A stretch of DNA of 64,000 nt from Anaerolineaceae bacterium. GTDB taxonomy: Bacteria > Chloroflexota > Anaerolineae > Anaerolineales > Villigracilaceae. Below the pieces are notes generated by a model. It was not told the origin of the DNA and ran no database searches. It saw only the letters and a program-made list of their open reading frames with translations. The stretch is taken from positions 29,332-93,331 of the forward strand of contig WOUS01000008.1 in NCBI GenBank assembly GCA_009772985.1, given 5' to 3'. Positions 42,553 to 62,118 of this stretch are shown here, one piece after another. Position numbers and translations under genes: made by a program. The number at the start of each line of letters is the position of its first letter. The stretch's first letter is position 1.

Positions 42553-42701
42553 AATAGTCTTGTTTTGTCAATGGACTTTGTGAAAGCCCTGCCGCTGCCC
42601 CTGCAACTTTCCGCCCCTGCCTGCATCTGATACAATGCAACCGACAACCACCACTCACCATTCACCATTCACCATCCCCCATTCACCATCCCCGAGGCCT
42701 T

Positions 42702-60137: not shown

Positions 60138-60161
60138 GGGACAAGTCTATAGACTTGTCCC
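60138..60161. repeat. Perfect 24-bp palindrome
   Basis: GGGACAAGTCTA and its exact reverse complement; same family as 5-23. Confidence 0.75.
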
Positions 60162-60221: not shown

Positions 60222-60227
60222 TATAAT
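60222..60227 (+). promoter_or_regulatory. -10 box of the tyrS leader
   Basis: TATAAT, 8 nt before the leader-peptide ATG at 60236; the expected start of transcription is about 60234. The -35 is weak (TTTTCC region). Confidence 0.6.
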
Positions 60228-60235
60228 TGCCCTCG

Positions 60236-60274
60236 ATGAACGCCCTCGTTTACTCCTATTATCCCCTTCCATAA
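60236..60274 (+). CDS. Tyrosine-rich leader peptide of tyrS (12 aa)
   Basis: ATG AAC GCC CTC GTT TAC TCC TAT TAT CCC CTT CCA TAA encodes MNALVYSYYPLP, with three Tyr codons in a stretch of four. It begins next to the predicted transcription start and stops 5 nt before the antiterminator stem. Three Tyr in 12 residues, exactly in front of tyrosyl-tRNA synthetase, points to a ribosome-stalling sensor of charged tRNA(Tyr). Confidence 0.7.
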   Translation: MNALVYSYYPLP

Positions 60275-60279
60275 CCCAC

Positions 60280-60326
60280 GCTGCGGTCCGCATCCACGCG
60301 CCTGCCGCAGCGGGCGCGTTTTCATT
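60280..60326 (+). promoter_or_regulatory. Attenuator: antiterminator and terminator hairpins of tyrS
   Basis: Terminator: CGCGCC (60297-60302) pairs with GGCGCG (60313-60318), extended by TG/CG, followed by TTTTCATTT. Competing antiterminator: GCTGCGG (60280-60286) pairs with CCGCAGC (60305-60311), which takes up the terminator loop and part of its stem. A ribosome stalled at the Tyr codons leaves 60280-60286 free; one that reaches the stop covers it and lets the terminator form. Confidence 0.7.
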
Positions 60327-60433
60327 TGTCAGAGCAGAGAATAGAGAGAAGAGAATAGTCAGAACCCAGTCCCTAATCCCTGATCCCTACTCACCATTCA
60401 CCATTCACCATTCACCATCTTCCGGAGTCTCCC

Positions 60434-61657
60434 ATGCCCACCCTCACCATAGACGAACAAGTCGCCCTGCTCATGCAAGGCGCCGAATACGGCGACGAAG
60501 AACTCAAACAGAATATGACCCGCGAACTGCGCGAACGGCTCGCCGAAGCGCAGAAGGAAGGCCGCCCGCTGCGCGTCTATTGCGGCTTCGACCCGCGCAC
60601 CAGCGACCTGCACCTCGGTCACACCGTGCCGATGCGCAAACAGCGCCAGTTCCAGGAACTCGGCCACGAGGTCACGTTCGTGGTCGGCGACTACACCTCC
60701 CTCATCGGCGACCCGTCCGACAAGGACAAACTCCGCCCGCGCCTGACGCACGCGGAAGTCCAGCACAACGCCGCCACGTACGCCGAGCAGGCCTACAAAA
60801 TCCTCGACCGCAAGCGGACGATGATCCGCTTCAATTCCGAGTGGCTGTCCGAACTGACCTTCGCCGAACTCATCGGCCTGGCTGCCAATTTCACCCTCCA
60901 GCAGTTCGTGCGCGAGCGCGAAAACTTCCGCCTGCGCTGGGAAAACAGCGACCCCATCTACCTGCATGAAACCTTCTACGCCATCATGCAGGGTTACGAC
61001 GCCTACATGCTCAAAGCCGACGTGCAGATCGGTGGCACCGACCAGATGTTCAACATCATGACCGCCGCCCGCAAGATCATGACCTCCCTCGGCGCGCGCC
61101 CCAACGTCGCCATCATCCTTGGCATCCTGCCCGGCACCGACGGCGAGATCAAGATGAGCAAATCGCTCGGCAACCACATCCCGCTGCTGGCGACGCCGGA
61201 GGACATGTACGGCAAGGTCATGTCCGTGCCAGACAAGGCGATGGGCCAGTTCATGCGCCTCGTCACGCGCTGGACTCCCGACCGGGTCGCCCAAACCGAG
61301 GCCGCGCTCAAGGCCGGAACATTGCACCCGCGCGACGCCAAGATGGCGATTGCGCGCGAGATCGTGTCCATCTTCCACGACGAGCAGTCCGCTGCCCGCG
61401 GCGAGGAAGTCTTCAAGAAAGTTTTCCAGCAGAAGGACATTCCCGACGAAATGCCCGAGTACGCCCTCCAGTCCGGGCAGACGGTGCTGGATGTGCTGGC
61501 CGCCGCGCAACTCGTGACCAGCAAATCCGAGGGGCGGAGGCTGTTCGAGCAGAAAGGCGTCAAGCTGGATGGCGAAACGCTGGAGAAATTCGACGCCCCC
61601 TTCCCGCATCCCGGCGTGCTGCAAGTGGGCAAGCGGAAGTTCGTGCGGGTGAAGTGA
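60434..61657 (+). CDS. tyrS: Tyrosyl-tRNA synthetase
   Basis: 407 aa class I synthetase. CGFDPRTSDLHLGHTVPM contains the HIGH-type motif (HLGH); GDYTSLIGDPSDKDKLRP, the tyrosine-binding QIGGTDQMFNI and the KMSKS loop (EIKMSKSLGNHI) follow; the S4 RNA-binding domain is at the C-terminus (SKSEGRRLFEQKGVKLDGE). The sequence is of the TyrZ-like branch. CGGAG precedes the ATG. The leader between 60327 and 60433 has AGAGAATAG and CACCATTCAC repeats. Its stop codon lies at the edge of an inverted-repeat arm. Confidence 0.96.
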   Translation: MPTLTIDEQVALLMQGAEYGDEELKQNMTRELRERLAEAQKEGRPLRVYCGFDPRTSDLHLGHTVPMRKQRQFQELGHEVTFVVGDYTSLIGDPSDKDKLRPRLTHAEVQHNAATYAEQAYKILDRKRTMIRFNSEWLSELTFAELIGLAANFTLQQFVRERENFRLRWENSDPIYLHETFYAIMQGYDAYMLKADVQIGGTDQMFNIMTAARKIMTSLGARPNVAIILGILPGTDGEIKMSKSLGNHIPLLATPEDMYGKVMSVPDKAMGQFMRLVTRWTPDRVAQTEAALKAGTLHPRDAKMAIAREIVSIFHDEQSAARGEEVFKKVFQQKDIPDEMPEYALQSGQTVLDVLAAAQLVTSKSEGRRLFEQKGVKLDGETLEKFDAPFPHPGVLQVGKRKFVRVK

Positions 61658-61725: not shown

Positions 61726-62118
61726 ATGGCGGCAAAAGATTTTCGAGAATTACGAGTTTATCAGCTGGCGTTCGAGACGGCCGTCCGGATTTACGAGTTG
61801 AGCAAGTTGTTTCCCGCAGAGGAACGCTATAGTTTGACCGACCAAATCCGGCGTTCGTCGCGCTCTGTATGTACGAATATTGCCGAAGCGTGGCGGAAGC
61901 GACGGTATCCCAACCACTTTGTCAGCAAGTTGAGCGACGCGGACGCAGAAGCGGCTGAGACCATCGTCTGGCTGGACTTTGCTCTACGATTTGGGTATAT
62001 CTCAGCTTCTGTCCATACTGAACTGACCGATCACTACGATCATCTTTGCAGCCAATTGACCCTGATGATGAATGATCCCAAACAATGGATGCCGCGCAAC
62101 CCGCCGGATCATTCCTAA
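61726..62118 (+). CDS. Four-helix-bundle protein (23S rRNA intervening-sequence/bAvd family)
   Basis: 130 aa. FRELRVYQLAFETAVRIYELSKLFPAEERYSLTDQIRRSSRSVCTNIAEAWRKRRY is the family signature, followed by DADAEAAETIVWLDFALRFGYIS. The family occurs in intervening sequences of 23S rRNA genes and, as Avd, with diversity-generating retroelements; there it forms a positively charged pentamer. No reverse transcriptase or rRNA is near. AAAGGAGG precedes ATG 61726. Enclosed by inverted repeats 61654-61690 and 62131-62160. Confidence 0.9.
   Translation: MAAKDFRELRVYQLAFETAVRIYELSKLFPAEERYSLTDQIRRSSRSVCTNIAEAWRKRRYPNHFVSKLSDADAEAAETIVWLDFALRFGYISASVHTELTDHYDHLCSQLTLMMNDPKQWMPRNPPDHS

Follow-up and report, generated by a model that had tools for sequence, protein, structure and literature searches.

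The window, by which we mean the whole 64,000-nucleotide stretch of DNA analysed here, is part of a 3.0-Mb genome (G000:C23) and carries tyrS, preceded on the same strand by a set of elements that very probably control its transcription. The nearest relatives are Anaerolineales/Anaerolineae MAGs of the Chloroflexota, and tyrS has relatives in Anaerolineae. Judged by these relatives, the host is a Chloroflexota (Anaerolineae) MAG, and the comparison with Firmicutes made in the first-pass annotation is therefore inapplicable. The elements of the locus are the following.

60222..60227, plus strand: -10 promoter hexamer TATAAT, read from the sequence
60237..60275, plus strand: leader-peptide ORF MNALVYSYYPLP of 12 codons (ATG at 60237, TAA at 60273-60275), read from the sequence and probably leaderless
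60279..60286, plus strand: 5' strand of the antiterminator, CGCTGCGG, pairing with 60305-60312; covariation in 38 sequences
60305..60312, plus strand: 3' strand of the antiterminator, CCGCAGCG, which is the terminator loop plus the tops of both terminator arms
60296..60319, plus strand: intrinsic terminator hairpin of 10 bp with a CGCA loop, found by terminator scan and kept in homologues
60320..60328, plus strand: U-tract of the terminator (UUUCAUUUG), read from the sequence; U-tracts also lie 3' of the hairpin in homologues
60434..61657, plus strand: tyrS, tyrosyl-tRNA synthetase, 407 aa (Pfam tRNA-synt_1b, E = 2.7e-64; weak SYY C-terminal match)

The leader ORF holds Tyr codons at 60252, 60258 and 60261, and its 12-codon frame beside a TATAAT was confirmed as previously annotated. 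The antiterminator pairing proposed earlier (60280-60286:60305-60311) was also correct, its real extent being longer (60279-60286:60305-60312, 8-9 bp), while the terminator core 60297-60302:60313-60318 with its U-run had been understated: the stem comprises 10 bp (60296-60305:60310-60319) closed by the CGCA loop and followed by TTTCATTTG, with the UUUUCAUUU tract directly 3' of the stem. This hairpin was the sole match in a consensus scan for plus-strand terminators between 59900 and 60700, and the interval between leader ORF and gene thus holds an intrinsic terminator, as in attenuators. The -35 box before the TATAAT is weak, no convincing one being present, and the promoter scan called no sigma-70 pair, so that the predicted start site near 60234 rests on the conserved -10 hexamer and its spacing. 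No Rfam family, T-box included, was detected in the window at gathering score, which bears out the earlier statement that tyrS lacks a T-box here; a T-box or other Rfam element was accordingly rejected as the regulator. Three further features lie near these elements. A perfect 24-nt palindrome, GGGACAAGTCTATAGACTTGTCCC, present as a single copy in the window, is located 5' of the promoter (60138-60161). The heptamer CACCATT is repeated at 60393-60416, just 5' of tyrS, and at 42650-42687 (chance expectation about 0.01). Directly 3' of tyrS, positions 61726-62118 encode a 23S rRNA-intervening-sequence-type protein (PF05635, E = 1.1e-30).

The upstream regions of 80 fetched tyrS loci were read and further genomes were added later. 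From 161 upstream regions, which are redundant between collections, 89 distinct attenuators were obtained, with a Tyr-rich ORF tail, a stop codon about 24 nt 5' of the terminator arm, and then a U-tract. If the first-pass interpretation was right, orthologous leaders were expected to share the Tyr codons and hairpins, and the close orthologues indeed keep Tyr codons, TATAAT, antiterminator and terminator. In six of these close relatives the TATAAT, short ORF and hairpins are all retained, with the ORF endings YYPLP (L003 and L006), YYYPCR (L004), YYYLP (L005), YYYSHP (L008) and YYYSCP (L010). The choice of amino acid was examined by counting each XX dipeptide among the ten codons that lead up to a stop located 12-45 nt 5' of the terminator. 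YY occurred in 45 of 56 loci, against 7 for the next-best residue (L), and YYY was counted 25 times, against at most 2 for any other residue. These loci thus present short ORFs in which codons for Tyr, the cognate amino acid of tyrS, stand in tandem. Measured to the beginning of the antiterminator helix, the median distance is 19 nt for the last Tyr codon (taken at its start) and 7 nt for the stop codon (taken at its first base; 89 loci). This spacing fits the earlier claim that the antiterminator strand would be hidden by a ribosome at the stop codon and left free by one at the Tyr codons. The distance from Tyr codon to antiterminator proved no more constant than that from stop codon to antiterminator (SD 2.8 vs 2.3), and the idea that it would be was dropped.

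A perfect TATAAT lies 6-12 nt (mostly 6-9) 5' of the start codon in 56/56 dedicated leaders, a count carrying some bias as the best match per locus was taken. Such 6/6 identity in every dedicated-leader locus is excluded as a chance result. Because of this position of the hexamer, the dedicated leaders are probably leaderless, and the RNA is expected to begin on the leader start codon or no more than a few bases from it. In six loci without attenuator (L064, L068, L070, L075, L080 and L081), tyrS itself is apparently leaderless, with a TATAAT 7-8 nt before its ATG.

Covariation was tested on the six central antiterminator pairs of 38 aligned leaders, the window being one row. Standard pairs were found in 75% of the cells, compared with 23-52% after sliding and 60.7% after shuffling, and 45 cells were changed on both sides of the helix against 19 expected from shuffles; shared ancestry is removed by the slid control and not by the shuffle controls. 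Among lineages the antiterminator takes about a dozen unrelated yet complementary sequences. The helix of the window clade, GCTGCGG:CCGCAGC, is replaced elsewhere by CTCTGTGGTGAG:CTCACCGCAGAG, GCGATGGTG:CATCATCGC, GTTTTACGAC:GTCGTAAAAC, CTGTGGAG:CTCCACAG, CCTGTCATT:AATGACAGG and ACGTTTTGCGT:ACGCAAAACGT. The covariation that the first-pass annotation suggested looking for in relatives is thus present in the antiterminator, with the sequence replaced between lineages and complementarity retained. In clear cases the 3' strand of the antiterminator sits at the terminator apex, as loop plus arm tops; at 35 of the 89 loci the automatically chosen helix was no better than in shuffled sequence at p 0.05. 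The terminator itself is 95.5% paired in the 38 homologues. In the window the calculated energies are -20.5 kcal/mol for the antiterminator (60279-60312) and -18.9 kcal/mol for the terminator. Folding of the RNA 3' of a ribosome placed at the stop codon gave the terminator only, while a ribosome placed at the Tyr codons gave the antiterminator. The antiterminator is therefore both conserved and exclusive with the terminator, whose apex is overlapped by 60305-60312. Since zero bases separate the antiterminator 3' strand from the remaining terminator 3' arm, the geometry suggests that the two should not coexist as a pseudoknot. A variant was observed 5' of tyrS in L014, L022, L027, L028, L055, L056 and L076, where a long hairpin extends from the stop codon (e.g. 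GTAGGG...CCCTAC) and a separate terminator lies directly 3' of it, with no obvious antiterminator overlapping the terminator.

A covariance model (R1) was built from the leaders of relatives (38 rows, window included). In the 3.0-Mb genome of the window its sole match was the window leader (E = 2e-8). Among 100 genomes of the family, 57 had a match, one per genome except for one genome with two tyrS copies, and 58/58 matches lie 15-176 nt 5' of tyrS on the same strand. The other 43 genomes had no R1 match, part of them carrying diverged versions missed by the model. In a phylum sample of 301 genomes, all matches fell in two families of the same order. A chance origin of the leader was ruled out by the covariation, the specificity of the model and the amino-acid control. 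A strict pattern search detected no second leader in the window's own genome, with a pattern that misses the window leader as well. Outside the order, 40 tyrS leaders sampled at class level gave four loose finder matches and no YY leader with a terminator. Two class-level relatives, L201 and L204, may have a distant Tyr leader: a similar ORF tail with Tyr codons (YSYS...YAP) is followed there by a terminator of the GCGTGGC or GCATGGC type. No T-box precedes tyrS among 20 related loci; the single match there is an ileS T-box (RF00230, 98 bits) in a Thermanaerothrix locus (L019:1593-1856, minus strand), located 5' of ileS.

Taken together, these features make it very likely that tyrS is controlled by a transcription attenuator in which the translating ribosome serves to sense charged tRNA-Tyr, and the original reading, attenuation of tyrS by a Tyr-rich leader, is well supported. 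From the arrangement of the parts we infer the start site, the stalling, the termination and the physiological response as follows. Transcription would start on the leader ATG or just 5' of it, and the ribosome would therefore load on the 5' end of the RNA. When Tyr-tRNA is plentiful, the ribosome would reach the stop codon and cover 60279-60286; with the antiterminator prevented, the 60296-60319 hairpin would form and most transcripts would end near 60325. With the ribosome held at the Tyr codons, 60279-60286 would be left uncovered and would pair with 60305-60312 as the latter emerges. The antiterminator would thereby take the loop and the tops of the terminator arms, and since the remaining arms would have no connecting loop, the terminator would be blocked and tyrS transcribed. 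The attenuator would thus probably turn tyrS up when charged tyrosine is short.

The window has a dedicated 12-codon leader. In about 30 related loci without a small ORF, it is instead a full-length upstream gene that ends in the Tyr codons (YYSRx, YYARx, YYYSRx). Its product, of about 170 aa, seems from the sequence to have two membrane stretches and gives a weak to significant match to bPH_6 (PF10756; E = 2.8e-6 for one member and 0.02 for another). It occurs in 32 genomes of the family sample, nearly always just 5' of tyrS. All 30 bPH_6-like tails that adjoin the attenuator contain YY, compared with 2 of 15 that do not adjoin it (Fisher p 1.4e-9, from rows that are related). The 15 include cases with a separate Tyr leader between the gene and tyrS (G025, G097, G072, G055, G033), cases with the gene elsewhere (G011, G016) and loci without attenuator; in one of them, L038, the terminator is present and the tail has a single Tyr. 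On the tree the label of the rows changes at least six times, with only three independent pairs on well-supported branches, too few for the sign test, of which one agrees and two show no difference. As the rows are related and independent pairs few, the contrast between tails should be read with the phylogeny, as strong but not independent evidence that the bPH_6-like tail may act as the Tyr sensor.

In these loci, about 20-30 nt separate the end of a full-length gene from the terminator, as in E. coli rph-pyrE, where termination ahead of the downstream gene depends on where the ribosome finishing the upstream one stands (PMC2784333). The end of a full-length upstream gene is the leader in both systems, and this anatomy is found in the roughly 30 relatives and not in the window. 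It could be argued from this likeness that what is sensed is the general pace of translation or of RNA polymerase, and not Tyr-tRNA. Such sensing is very unlikely, as Tyr is the amino acid whose codons stand out, 58/58 matches have the gene of the cognate synthetase as their target, and the second Tyr is nearly absent from the bPH_6-like tail when it is not a leader. In rph-pyrE, pyrE responds to pyrimidine nucleotides, whereas the presumed sensor here is the tandem Tyr codons at the tail. The gene-tail variant constitutes a natural experiment in which the same protein carries one or several C-terminal Tyr according to whether its stop codon adjoins an attenuator. It also lets the origin of regulatory codons and leader peptides be studied.

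The bPH_6-like genes that serve as leader mostly share with the dedicated leaders a TATAAT 6-9 nt before the ATG, in many cases with TTG or CTG on its 5' side, while those not serving as leader are mostly without a TATAAT-type promoter. The ending YY[SAC][RH]x is found in 28/30 bPH_6-like genes and in 20/59 dedicated leaders. On the tyrS tree the two forms interchange at least six times, in a direction not fixed by the tree; one group, for instance, joins L014 and L028, which have the gene-tail form, to L022 and L027, which have a dedicated leader. These observations would fit a bPH_6-like gene that was repeatedly shortened to a leader by internal deletion. The ancestral form would have been a bPH_6-like gene with its own leaderless promoter, whose tandem Tyr end was the tyrS leader, and the gene would have been reduced to a remnant of 10-20 codons keeping promoter, start and YY[SA][RH]x tail, as in the window. 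Where both a dedicated leader and the bPH_6-like gene are present, the gene tail has a single Tyr. That the sensor codons are modular, and that the ancestral tail was repeatedly reduced to a dedicated leader, or the reverse, is proposed tentatively, at a little under an even chance; if true, it would offer a visible route for the origin of leader peptides.

The YY[SA][RH]x ending common to several dedicated leaders and the gene tail, together with the conservation of YY near the C-terminus, might also be expected of a nascent-chain arrest peptide, i.e. a Tyr-rich peptide that, in response to free tyrosine or another small molecule, halts the ribosome and so sets the RNA fold. However, Tyr apart, the leader residues show no general conservation (PLP, SHP, VKQ, ANN and G endings), some leaders end one residue past the Tyr run, and with this antiterminator an arrest caused by excess free Tyr would regulate in the wrong direction, which makes an arrest peptide extremely unlikely. 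A constitutive terminator with an unrelated strong promoter, switch-like in looks and exerting no regulation, would leave both the antiterminator covariation and the keeping of the Tyr codons without reason, and its probability is close to negligible.

Leader-peptide attenuation is a known mechanism. A survey of Actinobacteria predicted leader-peptide attenuators for trpS and leuS and cited pheST; it reported no RNA structures for tyrosine operons there, and named T-boxes for tyrosine elsewhere (PMC1262725). Like those synthetase attenuators, the present one has a short ORF with cognate codons, antiterminator/terminator alternatives and a synthetase gene as target; unlike them, it combines Tyr with tyrS, belongs to another phylum and has a probably leaderless leader. 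A survey of RNA regulons listed attenuator specificities for His, Leu, Thr, Trp, Ile/Val and Phe, and T-boxes in Chloroflexi (PMC3766115). One compilation enters aroF as an attenuator sensing Tyr-tRNA, after Camakaris 1980 (PMC2659441), so that, going by this entry, Tyr sensing as such is not new. The attenuation proposed there for E. coli aroF-tyrA has the same presumed signal, but its target is a biosynthetic operon and not tyrS. In mycobacteria, a Cys-rich uORF lies 5' of cysA2 (PMC4633059), and in the ilvB1 uORF attenuator the antiterminator is masked by a ribosome at the stop codon (PMC13236596), as proposed for the tyrS leader. The regulatory codons of both are in an upstream ORF, as here, and leaderless transcripts, predicted for the tyrS leaders, are common in mycobacteria; the amino acids, targets and phylum differ. 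The T-box (RF00230) has the same purpose and is used in the class Anaerolineae for ileS, but it has no translated leader and is absent before the window tyrS. One class thus uses a T-box for ileS and a peptide leader for tyrS. The literature searched, which covered few subscription papers, contained no account of leader-peptide attenuation of tyrS. The tyrS target, the spread in Chloroflexota and the interchange between gene tail and dedicated leader appear to be new, adding tyrS and the phylum Chloroflexota to the leader-peptide attenuation surveyed in PMC3766115.

A separate observation concerns another locus of the same genome, 5' of a trpS-like gene (L002:863-1102). An ORF with an in-frame TGA in the context YCAA-TGA-H resembles a SelW-like selenoprotein there; the read-through protein has no Pfam match, and SelA and a tRNA-Sec match were found in the genome.
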